Assembly: GCF_029238095.1 (NCBI RefSeq)
Contig: NZ_JAQWGS010000012.1
Location: forward strand, 1-64,000
Length of the DNA stretch: 64,000 bases
Direction of reading: 5' to 3'
Origin: Lacinutrix sp.
GTDB lineage: Bacteria > Bacteroidota > Bacteroidia > Flavobacteriales > Flavobacteriaceae
Below are positions 29,863 through 35,863 of the stretch, piece after piece. Numbering within the stretch: position 1 is the first letter of the stretch; every line of letters begins with the position of its first letter. The translations under genes were made by a program, and so were the position numbers. The notes below the pieces were generated by a model. It was not told the origin of the DNA and did not search any database. It saw only the letters and a list, made by a program, of their open reading frames with translations.

Positions 29863-29979
29863 AACAATATTTTAATTGTATTGGTCAAGAAATAAAGCTA
29901 AAAAATATTTTTTTAAGAGAACAAAAACTAAAATAAAAATAATATTTTTACCAAAGTTAATTATTTGCCACACCTAAAC

Positions 29980-30561
29980 ATGTATTACATTTTTGTAAAC
30001 GACAAACCTATTATTTTAACAACTTTGGTTGAAAAAGAAACAGACTTTAAAAACTTTCTTTTAAACGATGTAGATATTGAGGAAGCTTTAAAGGTGCTTA
30101 AGAAGAAAAAAAATAAGTCTATAAGACTTATACATCATAACGAAGATAAGATATTAAAGAAATTTTTAAAAAAGCTACCAAATGTTATAGCTGGTGGTGG
30201 TAAGGTTTATAACAAGAATAAAGATATATTATACATCTTCAGAAATAATAAATGGGATTTACCAAAAGGTAAAGCAGAAAAAAAAGAAACCATAGAACAA
30301 ACTGCACTTCGGGAAGTCGAAGAAGAAACTGGAGTTTCTGGATTAAAAATTGTAAAACCTTTAGAAACAACATATCATATATTTAAAAGGAACGATAAAT
30401 TGAGAATAAAAATCACTTATTGGTTTGCAATGGAAACCGATTTTGAAGGTGAATTATTTCCTCAAGAAAACGAAGGAATTACTAAAGTAGCATGGTTAAA
30501 TAAAACACAAAGTATAGAAGCCTTAGAAAACAGTTATGCAAATATTAAATTGTTGTTTTAA
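29980..30561 (+). CDS. NUDIX hydrolase
   Basis: A 193-residue hydrolase of nucleoside-diphosphate-linked substrates. The full Nudix box is GKAEKKETIEQTALREVEEE followed by TGV, preceded by KWDLPKG. An N-terminal extension of about 70 residues precedes the Nudix fold. The ORF-track start (TTG at 29965) adds five residues; the ATG at 29980 is chosen. Its 3' end overlaps the convergent FGAH-like gene by 4 nt. The substrate is not predictable. Confidence 0.9.
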   Translation: MYYIFVNDKPIILTTLVEKETDFKNFLLNDVDIEEALKVLKKKKNKSIRLIHHNEDKILKKFLKKLPNVIAGGGKVYNKNKDILYIFRNNKWDLPKGKAEKKETIEQTALREVEEETGVSGLKIVKPLETTYHIFKRNDKLRIKITYWFAMETDFEGELFPQENEGITKVAWLNKTQSIEALENSYANIKLLF

Positions 30562-31241
30562 GAAGAAACGTTTTTTATAGCTATTAAAAGCACATCCTTT
30601 AGGTTTTTGTTTATTTTATTTTTTATCGAAAATTTCTGATTTAGCTCTATTTCAATCCCTAAATAATTCTCAGGAAATTGTTTTCTTAAATACATTGTAA
30701 AACCATCTGCTTTGCCTAAATACGGATAGTTAAATCTAACGTTAAGTGTTTTATCTTGTTTTAAAATTTCACTTTTTAAATTTTTACTAAACTTTTTTTC
30801 GGCTATGTTTCTAGAGTCAAATAATAAACCGATATCGCAATGTCTAACTTGGTTGTTTAAAATAGGAGTGAAAGAATGTACAGATAAATGTAGCACCTTA
30901 TTATTTGAATAAATATATTTTTTTATGGAAGCTTCAACGTTATTTCTAAACTCTAAATAATAATTAGAAATTAGTTGTTTTTTATCGTCTTTTGAAAGTG
31001 TTTTAGAAAATTCTGAAAACAATTTTTTATGGTGTAAACTTCTATTTAATTCAATTAATAATCTGCTATTATCGCTATATTTTGAATAATTTGAAAGTGG
31101 TTTTAGATAATTAAACACATCTAAAGCACCTAAGTCGTATCCACGATGAGAATTTAAAACTAGATCTTGATTTTTAAAATACAATTGGTATGGTTTCGGA
31201 ATTTTATTTCCACCATGTTCGCATGTTAATATAAGTTTCAA
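30558..31241 (-). CDS. N-formylglutamate amidohydrolase-like protein
   Basis: A 227-residue member of the N-formylglutamate amidohydrolase family, which cleaves N-formyl or similar amide bonds in a metal-dependent way. The family pattern is visible: LILTCEHGGNKIPKPYQ, SHRGYDLGALDVFNYL, ELNRSLHHKKLFS and HLSVHSFTPILNNQVRHCDI. The start is TTG at 31241, overlapping the TGA of the GCS2 gene as TTGA, so translation is coupled. No histidine-degradation genes are nearby. As third gene after two amide-forming ligases it more likely trims or recycles their product. Confidence 0.85.
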   Translation of the reverse strand: MKLILTCEHGGNKIPKPYQLYFKNQDLVLNSHRGYDLGALDVFNYLKPLSNYSKYSDNSRLLIELNRSLHHKKLFSEFSKTLSKDDKKQLISNYYLEFRNNVEASIKKYIYSNNKVLHLSVHSFTPILNNQVRHCDIGLLFDSRNIAEKKFSKNLKSEILKQDKTLNVRFNYPYLGKADGFTMYLRKQFPENYLGIEIELNQKFSIKNKINKNLKDVLLIAIKNVSS

Positions 31242-32464
31242 GATGTAAACATTTTATTTTCTTGCAAACAAGATGCTAATTTATTGTAAGTTTTTGTAAT
31301 GTTTTCTTTTGAAAAATCTTCATTTACAGACTTTAATATTCTAGTTGCTAAAGTACCTTGGTTTAAAATAACTTCTAAAGCTTCATAATGCGATGCATCT
31401 ATATTTGGTTTAGCTATTTGGTAAAGGTGTTTCCAGAGGTTTTGTACTGTTATATTATCTTTAATTTTAAATACCTCTAAGAATTCGAGATTAGAAATTT
31501 TATAGGTTTCTGCATCTTTAATAATTGGGTTTAAAATAGCAAATAAGTCTTGTTTTAGCCACTTTTTCTGATTTTTTAAAGTGCCAAGTTCTTTGTTTAC
31601 TAATAGTTTTAAAACTTCAATTATTAAAACACAAATAGCAATATCTGCTTTTGGGCTTTCTTGTATATCTACTAACCTAATTTCTATAGCATTTCTATCA
31701 AAACGTGCTATTGCACCACGAGAGTTTAAAAAATGATGGTCTAAAATATTTTTAGTATCGTGAGGTTTTATGGCATTATTTATAGGTTCAAAAATAGTCG
31801 CATAATAATCTACTTTACTAAAAACACCTTCTGGAATGACCAAACCAGTCATTTCAGGAATTTCTTTTTGGTTAGTTTTATAGTATTCTAACCTTGTGTC
31901 TTTATAACCTGTCTCTTTTCCTTCTAAAATTGGAGAGCTTGCACATAAACCAGGTATTAGAGGTAAAATAACACGAATAGCAGCATGTAGTTTTTCGAAT
32001 TCTTTATCATCGTAAAAAGGTAGATTTATATGTGTGCTTTGTACGTTACTCCAACCATGACCTTTGCAATTAAAAATGCGGTTGTAAAGTTCATACACTT
32101 CACTATAACTATGCTTCCATAGTTTAGTGTCTGTTAAAGGGTTCATTAAAGGATGGCAAGCCGTTGGTAATAATTGCGCGTTTAGCTTATTTAAAAGGTG
32201 GTTTATTTCCACAACGTTTTTATGAAACAACCCAGACAAGGTATTTAAATTTGCTGCAGGACCATTGGTTTTTAATTCTAATACATGCGCAACAAGTTCA
32301 TTACTCCATGCAATTTCACCATTATCAATATCAGCAGTTAATTTACCCGCTTTTTGTATTAATAATGTGTCTACAATAGGAGCGACTTTAAAGGTGCTAC
32401 TATTTATAAGCATATATTCTAGTTCTATGCCAAAAACTTCAAACAAGTGGTATTTTTTTCCCAT
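31238..32464 (-). CDS. Glutamate-cysteine ligase family 2 (GCS2) protein
   Basis: A 408-residue ATP-dependent carboxylate-amine ligase of the GCS2 superfamily (glutamine-synthetase-like fold). Blocks seen: FEVFGIELEYMLINSST, ANLNTLSGLFHKNV, STHINLPFYDDKEF, the substrate region LIPGLCASSPILEGKETGYK, and RFDRNAIEIRLVDIQESPKA. It would form an amide between an amino acid carboxylate and an amine. Substrates are unknown. It lies 2 nt after the ATP-grasp ligase gene and overlaps the amidohydrolase gene by 4 nt. Confidence 0.88.
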   Translation of the reverse strand: MGKKYHLFEVFGIELEYMLINSSTFKVAPIVDTLLIQKAGKLTADIDNGEIAWSNELVAHVLELKTNGPAANLNTLSGLFHKNVVEINHLLNKLNAQLLPTACHPLMNPLTDTKLWKHSYSEVYELYNRIFNCKGHGWSNVQSTHINLPFYDDKEFEKLHAAIRVILPLIPGLCASSPILEGKETGYKDTRLEYYKTNQKEIPEMTGLVIPEGVFSKVDYYATIFEPINNAIKPHDTKNILDHHFLNSRGAIARFDRNAIEIRLVDIQESPKADIAICVLIIEVLKLLVNKELGTLKNQKKWLKQDLFAILNPIIKDAETYKISNLEFLEVFKIKDNITVQNLWKHLYQIAKPNIDASHYEALEVILNQGTLATRILKSVNEDFSKENITKTYNKLASCLQENKMFTS

Positions 32465-32466
32465 GT

Positions 32467-33912
32467 TTAATCTAATCTGTTTTTAAAAGCGTTAAGAATT
32501 TTGGTATATACCAAATCCCCATAATGTAAATCTTCTACACCAAAATCAATATTTGGGTTATCGTTAATTTCAATAACCATAGGTTTGTTGTTTACCACTT
32601 TTATATCTATGCCATATAAGCCTTTTCCAATAAGTCTTGAAGACTTTAAAGCCATATCTAATACTTTTTTAGGCACTTCTTCTATTGGTAAACAATCGGC
32701 ATCTCCATCTTGATCGTTCTTTTTCTTTGCTTTCCAGTTATAAATTTGCCAATGTCCTTTTGCCATATAATATTTACAAGCATAAAATGGTTTGTCGTCT
32801 ATAATTCCTATACGCCAATCATAATCCGATGGACAAAATTCTTGCGCAATAATAAGATCAGATTCTTTAAGCATTTCATTAACCAAACTGTTGTATTCGT
32901 CTTCTGTTTTTGCTTTTTTTACACCAAAAGAAAAGGTAGAGTCTGGTGCTTTTAAAACACAAGGCAAACCAACTTCTTGAATTACATTATTTCTATTGTC
33001 TTTATGAACAATAACTGTTTTTGGCGTCGCTATATTGGCATTGTTTAAAGCTTCTGTCATATAAACTTTATTGCAGCATTTTAATATAGCATCTGGATAA
33101 TCAATTATAGCAATACCTTCTTGTTGTGCTTTTCTGGCAAATGCATAAGCCTCGTTGTTTACTTCTGTACTTTGTCTAATAAAAAGGGCATCAAAAGAAG
33201 ATAAACGCGATAAGTCTTTAGGCTCAATAATTTCTGCATAAATATTCATTTTTTCAGCTATATCAATAAACTTTCTTATGGCTTTTACATTACTTGGAGG
33301 TGCAGGATCATTAGGATTTACAAGTATTGCTAAATCAAAATCAGACTTTATTAACTTTGGTGTATCGTAACGTTTTTTTGCAAAATATTGGTTTGCAAAT
33401 TCATGCACACTTTCTAAGTGTTCTTCAGGAATTTCAGATTCTGAAACCACGCGTACACTTTGAATATTCCACTTTGTATTATGACTAAATTTTACCTGAA
33501 AAAAAGGTACTTGAAAGTGCTTATAAAATAAGCTACTTAATTCTTTATATTTTAAAGCGACGTTTTGCCCAAAATAAATACTTAATGTAAATTCTCTGGA
33601 TTTAATGTTTTTTAAGCTTTGCTGAATAACATCATCGAACTCGTCTGAAACTATACGAACGAGTTTTAAGTTTTTTAAGTCTACAATATTTTTAACCGTT
33701 GGAATGGCTAAATGACCTCTAGCTTCTGCTAAAAGCGACACATAGTAACCTTTAGATTGGTAGGAATAATCTTTACAAAGATTAAATATTCTAGCTTTTT
33801 TTAAAAGGGAAAATGTAGGATTTGTAAGATATTCTTGCGAAGAAATTACTGTAATATTCTCAATCGAAAAATTCCATTTTTCAGGTTGATTGACAACAAT
33901 GTATTTATTCAT
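32467..33912 (-). CDS. RimK-like ATP-grasp ligase with N-terminal RLAN domain
   Basis: A 481-residue ligase. Residues 1-180 match the RLAN (RimK-like ATP-grasp N-terminal) domain: NPTFSLLKKARIFNLCKDYS, YQSKGYYVSLLAEARGHLAI, TLSIYFGQ. Residues about 205-480 are the RimK-like ATP-grasp: PPSNVKAIRKFIDIAEKM, DALFIRQSTEVNNEAYAFA, LPCVLKAPDSTFSFGVKKA, DYDWRIGIIDDKPFYACKYY and VIEINDNPNIDFGVEDLH (metal-binding ENDNPN). Enzymes of this group ligate amino acids to peptides or small molecules. It leads the operon with the GCS2 and amidohydrolase genes. It is not RimK itself, which lacks RLAN. Confidence 0.92.
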   Translation of the reverse strand: MNKYIVVNQPEKWNFSIENITVISSQEYLTNPTFSLLKKARIFNLCKDYSYQSKGYYVSLLAEARGHLAIPTVKNIVDLKNLKLVRIVSDEFDDVIQQSLKNIKSREFTLSIYFGQNVALKYKELSSLFYKHFQVPFFQVKFSHNTKWNIQSVRVVSESEIPEEHLESVHEFANQYFAKKRYDTPKLIKSDFDLAILVNPNDPAPPSNVKAIRKFIDIAEKMNIYAEIIEPKDLSRLSSFDALFIRQSTEVNNEAYAFARKAQQEGIAIIDYPDAILKCCNKVYMTEALNNANIATPKTVIVHKDNRNNVIQEVGLPCVLKAPDSTFSFGVKKAKTEDEYNSLVNEMLKESDLIIAQEFCPSDYDWRIGIIDDKPFYACKYYMAKGHWQIYNWKAKKKNDQDGDADCLPIEEVPKKVLDMALKSSRLIGKGLYGIDIKVVNNKPMVIEINDNPNIDFGVEDLHYGDLVYTKILNAFKNRLD

Positions 33913-34100: not shown

Positions 34101-35834
34101 CTATTTTACTCTATAAACAGGATACTGTAGGTGTGCCTTTTCGTAATTCTCGCTTTTTTTATGAATCCAATCTAATTGTGCATACCAATTATCAGCAAAA
34201 TCTGGTTCGTAAGATTTTTTTAGATTCAGTTCTATTTGTAATCTTGGATTTTGCAGTAAAATTAGTTTAGCCTTCTCTTCCCAAACATAAGGCGAAAAAC
34301 CTTCTTTTTGCTGTAAAATGGTATCGAAAAAATTCCAATTAAAAAACGAATCTGGAGCTTGTGGTTCTAAGGTTTCAAGCAAATATCTTAAACTTGTTTG
34401 GTTCGTTTTAATTAAATAATCACCTTTTTTAAAAGTTATCGTTTTAATTTTTGAAGATACTGTGGTATTATAATGAAGATAATGGCCTTCGTAAGGAGTG
34501 TTTCTACTTTTGTAATCTTTAATTTTATAAATCTCTACTGTATATGAAGAATCCTTTTCTAACTGGAACATTTCAGTGTTATTTATCTTTAATAAATCTA
34601 TTACAGGCCACCAACCTTGAGGAATTATATATGCTGAAGGAATTGTTACTGAATCTGTAGGTTTAAAATAATTTTGGTAGCTAACCTCTTTTGTAAAAGG
34701 TTTGTTTCTATTAAATTTTAAGCGTTGCTTTCCAGTAATTTCACTAGGTATCATTTCGCCCTCAAAACCTTTAAAATTTAACATTGAAGTTTTGCTAGTA
34801 TCTAATTCCCAATTTAAAGTATACGTTTTATTTGTTAGTAGTTTTTTATTAGCGTGTTCACGAAGTTTTTTTATTTTTTCGCCATCGTTTTCTGTAATAT
34901 CAACCATACTTTTCATAAGTTCATAAGTACCTTCCACACGTTGCTTATAAGGTTTTAGCATGTGTGTTTCTACCATCATGCCTAAGGTGTTAAATAGTGT
35001 TGTATAACCTGTGGAATAACGAGGAGAGTCCATAAACTGACTAAAACCAGATTCTGGTGTTTTATTAAAAACATTAACGTAAGGTGTAATGTCCCAATCT
35101 TTATCTGCTAATTGTTGTTCTAAATTGGGCATCATTTCATTGTGTAAATACGCTCCTAAATCGCCTCCAAGTTTGTTATGTTGTGTAAATAAGTGTGTAA
35201 GCGTGTATTGGTAATCTGCGCCATTACTAACATGGTTATCTATAAAAACATCTGGTTGTACTATATGAAATAGTTGAGCAAATGTTTTTGCATTTTTAGT
35301 ATCACATTTTATAAAATCTCTGTTAAGGTCGTAATTTCTAGCATTACCTCTAAAACCATAGGCTTTTGGACCATTTTGGTTGGTTCTTGTTGTTGAGTTT
35401 CTATTTAAACTACCACCAACATTATAGATAGGAATAGTAACTATAACAGTGTTTTTGGGTGCTGTAATTTTACCTTTAGCAAGGTCTCTGTAAAGCATCA
35501 TGGTAGCATCTATACCATCACTTTCTCCAGGATGTATGCCATTGTTTATTAAAAGAATGCGTTTGTTTTTGCGTATTTCTGAAAAATTAAAAATACCATC
35601 AGTGTTTAAGGTAACCATGTGTAACGGTTTTCCTGAGTCTGTTTCTCCAATAGAATCTATTTTTATTGAGGCATAAGTAGCTGCTAAATTCTTGTAATAC
35701 TCAATGGTTTCTGCATACGTTGCTGTTTCTAAACCATTAGATTTTTCGAAAACAGTAGTGAAATTGTACTCTTTCTCTTTTTTGGAGTTACAACTTAAAA
35801 TTACAAGAAGTAAAAGAATAAATATTTTTTTCAT
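34101..35834 (-). CDS. M14 family zinc carboxypeptidase, secreted lipoprotein
   Basis: A 577-residue exported carboxypeptidase. The ATG at 35834 gives a clean lipoprotein signal (MKKIFILLLLVILSC); the ORF-track start at 35858 adds eight residues in front. The catalytic domain covers about 25-320: NNGIHPGESDGIDATMML (zinc His and Glu), RNYDLNRDFIKCDT (substrate Arg) and FIDNHVSNGADYQYT (third zinc His). The C-terminal 250 residues (TLNWELDTSKTSMLNFKG onward) look like beta-rich accessory domains. It would degrade peptides in the periplasm or on the surface. It is divergent from the SulP gene. Confidence 0.9.
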   Translation of the reverse strand: MKKIFILLLLVILSCNSKKEKEYNFTTVFEKSNGLETATYAETIEYYKNLAATYASIKIDSIGETDSGKPLHMVTLNTDGIFNFSEIRKNKRILLINNGIHPGESDGIDATMMLYRDLAKGKITAPKNTVIVTIPIYNVGGSLNRNSTTRTNQNGPKAYGFRGNARNYDLNRDFIKCDTKNAKTFAQLFHIVQPDVFIDNHVSNGADYQYTLTHLFTQHNKLGGDLGAYLHNEMMPNLEQQLADKDWDITPYVNVFNKTPESGFSQFMDSPRYSTGYTTLFNTLGMMVETHMLKPYKQRVEGTYELMKSMVDITENDGEKIKKLREHANKKLLTNKTYTLNWELDTSKTSMLNFKGFEGEMIPSEITGKQRLKFNRNKPFTKEVSYQNYFKPTDSVTIPSAYIIPQGWWPVIDLLKINNTEMFQLEKDSSYTVEIYKIKDYKSRNTPYEGHYLHYNTTVSSKIKTITFKKGDYLIKTNQTSLRYLLETLEPQAPDSFFNWNFFDTILQQKEGFSPYVWEEKAKLILLQNPRLQIELNLKKSYEPDFADNWYAQLDWIHKKSENYEKAHLQYPVYRVK

Positions 35835-35863
35835 AATTGATGCACAGATTAAATTCAATAAAC

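Follow-up and report, generated by a model that had tools for sequence, protein, structure and literature searches.

A conserved RLAN ATP-grasp, GCS2 and formylglutamate-amidohydrolase-like gene set in Lacinutrix and its variable partners across Bacteroidota

Genes at the locus

The DNA analysed here (the window) is a stretch of 64,000 nucleotides from Lacinutrix sp. (contig NZ_JAQWGS010000012.1). Its open reading frames (ORFs) and Pfam matches define a minus-strand operon of three genes, which encode an RLAN/RimK-like ATP-grasp ligase, a GCS2 ligase and an amidohydrolase of the formylglutamate amidohydrolase (FGase) family. All three proteins score above the curated Pfam cut-offs and their genes form one conserved unit, in agreement with the first-pass annotation, which had recognised two different amide ligases and an amide hydrolase. 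The ORF coordinates also confirm that the three genes lie on the same strand with a gap of 2 nucleotides and an overlap of 4 nucleotides.

32467..33912, minus strand: RLAN/RimK-like ATP-grasp ligase, first gene of the operon, 481 residues; 80 homologues at 74-94% identity
33403..33837, minus strand: RLAN domain, residues 26-170; PF14401, E=2e-47; AlphaFold model poor here
32545..33072, minus strand: ATP-grasp catalytic domain, residues 281-456; PF08443 (RimK)/PF07478 (Dala_Dala_lig_C)
32465..32466, minus strand: intergenic gap between the RLAN and GCS2 genes, 2 nucleotides
31238..32464, minus strand: GCS2-family carboxylate-amine ligase, 408 residues; PF04107, E=8e-26; subfamily distinct from YbdK
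31238..31241, minus strand: start/stop overlap of the GCS2 and FGase genes, 4 nucleotides, TTGA
30558..31241, minus strand: FGase-family amidohydrolase, 227 residues, TTG start; PF05013, E=8e-14; divergent from HutG
29965-30561, plus strand: Nudix gene facing the FGase gene, with a 4-nucleotide overlap with the FGase gene end

The Nudix gene was suspected to be unrelated to the operon, and it indeed lies kilobases away or is absent in many relatives. As was also noted at first, no histidine-degradation (hut) or ribosomal S6 gene is present among the ORFs of 24-42 kb in the window. A scan with the Bacteroidota promoter pattern detected no site in front of the operon, and matches were no more frequent than expected by chance.

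The three genes are conserved as a unit

Close relatives were scanned with one genome per species, which yielded 80 RLAN homologues, nearly all from marine Flavobacteriaceae, and 76 evaluable loci. The RLAN, GCS2 and FGase genes are adjacent and in the same order in 75 of these 76 loci of other species, and the junctions are mostly within a few bases or overlapping. The sole exception is Brumimicrobium glaciale, which is without the FGase gene. The grouping exceeds chance, and adjacency in all but one evaluable locus identifies the trio as a real unit; separation of the three genes in related genomes, which the first-pass annotation had named as one outcome that would refute it, was not observed. 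The flanks of the trio vary: both the peptidase gene on the upstream side and the Nudix-PyrE block on the downstream side are found at some loci and are missing or displaced at others. The divergence of the three genes is correlated (Mantel r 0.87-0.96), a value that indicates consistency only, since a common history of the species would lead to it as well.

The RLAN gene is patchy in the genus of the window and its near relatives (7/40 genomes). Brumimicrobium is a genus of another family, and its RLAN protein nevertheless falls inside the flavobacterial branch of the RLAN tree, which suggests that the trio was transferred as a unit. Pseudomonadota were covered through plasmids, among which a plasmid of Legionella adelaidensis has the same trio at approximately 40-44% identity.

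Several further features were observed around these loci. The window carries, at 34101-35858 on the minus strand, a gene for a 585-residue protein that shows M14-peptidase-like motifs (HPGESDG) and a leader like that of lipoproteins but no Pfam match at E 0.1; this gene is the upstream neighbour of the trio in many relatives. A 509-residue protein that combines GNAT and carbon-nitrogen hydrolase domains is encoded directly upstream of RLAN in 11 of the 80 close loci (at 4400-5929 in L022, for example) and at a distance of several genes in three more; a 73% identical copy in the genome of the window lies on contig 27, not beside RLAN. In one genome of the same genus (G008), the RLAN frame is interrupted by the stops TAG/TAA, which may reflect either decay of the ligase gene or an assembly error.

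RLAN loci carry either GCS2 or GNAT

RLAN is present in 47 genomes of an even phylum sample of 393 Bacteroidota genomes, and its surroundings were read in 46 of them besides that of the window. These loci comprise 31 of the GCS2 type, 14 with a GNAT fusion and one with a GNAT-C39 fusion. GCS2 and GNAT therefore occur at 31 versus 15 RLAN loci, and both together in none. In the GCS2 type, a C39-like cysteine peptidase gene stands directly before RLAN in all 26 Bacteroidota loci outside the family of the window and in none of the five sampled loci within it. The peptidase is absent from the window and was not found in the genome of the window by a single query, which is a weak test. The FGase gene follows GCS2 in 22 of the 31 loci; the nine loci without it all have C39, and an FGase-family gene is absent genome-wide in eight of these nine genomes. 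No sampled GCS2-type locus lacks both hydrolases, C39 and FGase.

In the second architecture, a RimI-like GNAT domain, which resembles the RimI N-acetyltransferase, is fused ahead of the RLAN-ATP-grasp protein, and GCS2, FGase and C39 are not found beside it. The FGase gene accordingly occurs at 22/31 GCS2-type loci versus 0/14 GNAT-fusion loci (Fisher p=7e-6, a value that ignores relatedness). The GNAT-C39 fusion protein beside RLAN was observed at one Bacteroidota locus (L172) and on Azospirillum and Tistrella plasmids. Across the loci surveyed, RLAN is the constant component and is joined by either GCS2 or GNAT; C39 accompanies both of these alternatives, and FGase accompanies only GCS2. 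The initial reading of the operon as two ligases and a hydrolase thus stands as a conserved unit, but it missed the fourth gene (C39), the GCS2/GNAT swap and the fact that FGase follows GCS2 and not RLAN.

At L172 (4068-6689), RLAN and ATP-grasp are split into two frames, of 207 and 298 residues, beside the GNAT-C39 fusion. A DUF155 (RMND1/Sif2-like) gene precedes C39-RLAN-GCS2 in one related family (L137, L165 and L167). A published Pseudomonas gene list also shows a GNAT protein as the neighbour of a 'RimK family protein' (PMC9756463). Phage records contained no RLAN protein; the sole matches were ATP-grasp fragments from two Yersinia phages (LC779065 and MW570730), where a RimK-like ATP-grasp stretch lies within a gene whose annotation is that of a structural protein.

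Family assignment and active sites of the operon enzymes

The first protein has the RLAN-ATP-grasp architecture, with 160.9 bits to PF14401 (cut-off 25) and 38.9 bits to RimK (cut-off 21). It scores 35.3 bits on the RimK S6-glutamate ligase equivalog NF007764, far below the cut-off of 331, and 71 versus 143 bits against the RimK family cut-off. Family models place its ATP-grasp domain closer to RimK/LysX/MptN than to GshB, and the nearest solved structures are those of RimK (7qyr/7qys/5zct). In P. aeruginosa RimK, the residues R64, R189 and N262 contact glutamate (PMC10092738). They align with R246, R367 and N450 of the RLAN protein; R246 is invariant in 51 RLAN proteins, and R367 and N450 are conserved in at least 90%. 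R189 and N262 are presumably general ATP-grasp active-site residues, so that only R246 is informative for likeness to RimK.

The GCS2 protein scores 91.5 bits on PF04107 (cut-off 21). It falls short of every glutamate-cysteine ligase/YbdK equivalog (best 57.5 versus 371 bits; gshA_cyano 45 versus 249), and a PDB sequence search gave no match. Its AlphaFold model has a predicted local distance difference test (pLDDT) score of 86 and matches YbdK 1r8g best (Foldseek template modelling scores 0.67/0.77), followed by plant glutamate-cysteine ligase 2gwc and then by other glutamate-cysteine ligases and Pup ligases. This modelled fold supports a reaction in which ATP is used to activate a carboxylate of glutamate. 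The structure prediction that had been proposed as a check was thus informative for GCS2, with its YbdK-like fold, but not for RLAN, which reached a pLDDT of 57 with an alignment of 28 close homologues.

The FGase protein scores 52.7 bits on PF05013 (cut-off 28.9) and matches PDB 2odf in a PDB sequence search (E=6e-13). E8, H9, H118, H122 and R133 are invariant among 24 aligned members and are presumably catalytic, judging from this invariance; H32, D36 and R67 are likewise invariant. Assignment as HutG failed, with no NCBIfam match at E 0.1 and no hut genes beside the operon. Active-site residues are kept in all three operon enzymes and in the C39-like peptidase, whose Cys15-His172-Asp190 is invariant in the aligned members.

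The operon enzymes are also distinct from their housekeeping relatives. The GCS2 proteins of the operons score 60-109 bits on PF04107, versus 190-237 for the additional, YbdK-like GCS2 that 15 of these genomes encode. The FGase proteins of the operons score 49-90 bits on PF05013, versus 216-230 for HutG-like genes. A canonical rimB-rimK cluster is present on contig 8 of the same genome, and the RimK encoded there reaches 387 bits with the S6-ligase model. This separate cluster makes an S6-only role of the RLAN ligase, which the first-pass annotation had named as another outcome that would overturn it, unlikely. The rimB-rimK pair (L003 481-2817) is followed on the same strand by a succinylglutamate-desuccinylase-like gene.

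Comparison with known systems

The amidoligase survey of Iyer et al. 2009 reportedly described links between peptidases of unrelated folds and three kinds of ligase, with the ATP-grasp, glutamine-synthetase (GCS2) and acetyltransferase folds. The three-gene set very probably falls among the amidoligase operons predicted there, and RLAN is already a Pfam family. The GCS2/GNAT swap and the dependence of FGase on GCS2 were found in the present analysis and may already be contained in that survey, which is cited by two later papers (PMC12239564; PMC4431377). A literature search found no experimental work on RLAN proteins.

Four systems are instructive for comparison. RimK and RimB, which serve the poly-glutamylation of S6, likewise combine a ligase and a hydrolase in one operon, RimK being the nearest solved relative of the ATP-grasp domain, and the RLAN protein shares the three aligned active-site residues described above. 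In contrast, it has an RLAN N-terminal domain and a GCS2 partner, no retropepsin is present, and canonical RimK is encoded separately in the genome.

The second is the pair of EgtA, which we take to belong to the GCS2 family, and EgtC, presumably an Ntn-type enzyme and not an FGase. In ergothioneine synthesis, EgtA adds a gamma-glutamyl group that the amidohydrolase EgtC later removes (PMC6374457). The window operon resembles this pair in combining a putative gamma-glutamyl ligase with an amidohydrolase that would act later, but no EgtB/EgtD-like genes lie beside it and it adds an ATP-grasp ligase.

The third is the N-acetylglutaminylglutamine amide (NAGGN) system, which is not known to have an RLAN domain. 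This system resembles the GNAT-RLAN fusion type and is the nearest worked example of the GNAT architecture. TIGR03103, the model for its synthetase, covers both a GNAT region and an ATP-grasp region. The NAGGN operon serves a capped dipeptide and includes both a peptidase and an enzyme of the GNAT family (PMC8070244). It differs in having an amidotransferase in place of GCS2 and another peptidase, and the window operon is without GNAT.

The fourth is an operon in the same genome (contig 26:89117-93425), which encodes a GshB-like ATP-grasp protein, a rhodanese, a TerB-like protein, a divergent FGase and a MATCAP-family peptidase. Its GshB-like, FGase and MATCAP genes are kept together in many Bacteroidota and represent another uncharacterised ligase-hydrolase set. 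Here too, an ATP-grasp ligase adjoins an FGase and a peptidase, and the arrangement is conserved in relatives; however, the ATP-grasp is of the GSH-S type, RLAN and GCS2 are absent, and a MATCAP-family carboxypeptidase is found instead of C39.

A possible pathway for N-capped peptides

We tentatively favour the explanation that the cassette makes and recycles a small N-capped peptide, with a gamma-glutamyl cap placed by GCS2 and FGase acting on it; this is a serious possibility short of a probable one. The RLAN ATP-grasp protein, with its established family and conserved ATP-grasp residues, would be the constant peptide-bond-forming ligase acting on substrates that we infer. GCS2 would activate the gamma-carboxylate of glutamate with ATP and couple it to an amine of the same molecule, as its family and its replacement by GNAT suggest, and GNAT in other lineages would add an acetyl cap in its place. 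The FGase-like enzyme would cut the amide beside the glutamyl group and thereby mature or recycle the product. The C39-like cysteine peptidase may perform a second hydrolysis or transfer step in most Bacteroidota; in the family of the window, it was presumably lost or never present. GCS2 and GNAT both acylate amines and are mutually exclusive, which suggests that their caps are interchangeable on one shared product of RLAN. Similarly, the association of FGase with GCS2 suggests that FGase acts on the glutamyl cap, by analogy with the action of EgtC on the glutamyl group added by EgtA. The broader proposal is doubtful, namely one widespread N-capped-peptide pathway with acetyl and gamma-glutamyl caps interchangeable on a shared RLAN ligase and with the FGase partner as a gamma-glutamyl-cap hydrolase. 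We know of no such hydrolase activity in the FGase family.

Several points weigh against a capped peptide. GCS2-fold enzymes include the Pup ligase and depupylase, and a protein substrate is possible. The GNAT fusions form only two clades on the RLAN tree, so that the association of FGase with GCS2 rests on few independent events. FGase is absent from 9/31 GCS2 loci, and its removal of a cap is therefore not essential everywhere. Finally, the positions modified by GNAT and by GCS2 could differ.

Among the alternatives, reversible protein tagging is unlikely but fares best. RLAN would add amino acids, perhaps glutamate, to a protein, GCS2 would add a gamma-glutamyl branch, and FGase and C39 would erase the modification. 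A writer-eraser precedent exists in RimK, which modifies S6, and RimB, which erases the modification (PMC10092738; PMC12239564). The match of RimK R64, R189 and N262 to RLAN R246, R367 and N450, the action of the GCS2-fold enzymes PafA and Dop on proteins, and the likeness of the GNAT domain to RimI, which acts on a ribosomal protein, point in the same direction. However, the locus neighbourhoods contain no conserved gene for a candidate protein substrate, only R246 of the aligned residues is informative, and the patchy occurrence of RLAN among near relatives fits an accessory metabolite better than the modification of a core protein.

A glutathione-like pathway appears improbable. GCS2 would make gamma-Glu-X (the role of GshA), RLAN would add the C-terminal residue (the role of GshB), and FGase and C39 would degrade the tripeptide. 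The GCS2 fold is nearest to YbdK and plant glutamate-cysteine ligase, and the ATP-grasp similarity extends to glutathione synthetase. But RLAN occurs with GNAT and without GCS2 in 15 loci and therefore does not depend on a gamma-Glu-X substrate, its ATP-grasp domain is closer to RimK/LysX/MptN than to GshB, and GCS2 is far under the glutamate-cysteine ligase cut-offs, including that of gshA_cyano.

There is a similarly small chance that FGase directly counteracts RLAN, with RLAN coupling the amine of glutamate to a carboxylate to make an N-acyl-glutamate that FGase splits like N-formylglutamate. The substrate chemistry of FGase matches that of the RimK family, and the second FGase of the genome sits in the conserved GshB-like ATP-grasp/MATCAP operon without GCS2, so that FGase also recurs next to ATP-grasp ligases where GCS2 is missing. 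At the RLAN loci, however, FGase follows GCS2 and never the GNAT fusion, although RLAN is present in both locus types.

Accidental neighbourhood of the housekeeping enzymes HutG, YbdK and S6 ligase, to which only the broad family names point, can be dismissed as highly improbable, being contradicted by adjacency across genera and phyla, the low GCS2 and FGase family scores and the separate rimB-rimK cluster on contig 8. Because many hosts are marine, a role as an osmolyte was weighed as well; the Legionella host comes from cooling-tower water, which argues against salt as the common factor.

Significance

If the N-capped-peptide reading is true, the marine Bacteroidota set, which is shared with Legionella, and the related RLAN sets of Pseudomonas and Azospirillum would make a small peptide not yet seen. 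The GCS2/GNAT swap and the dependence of FGase on GCS2 turn the vague prediction of 'some peptide' into a testable one, in which two organisms would carry the same core with a gamma-glutamyl cap in one and an acetyl cap in the other.

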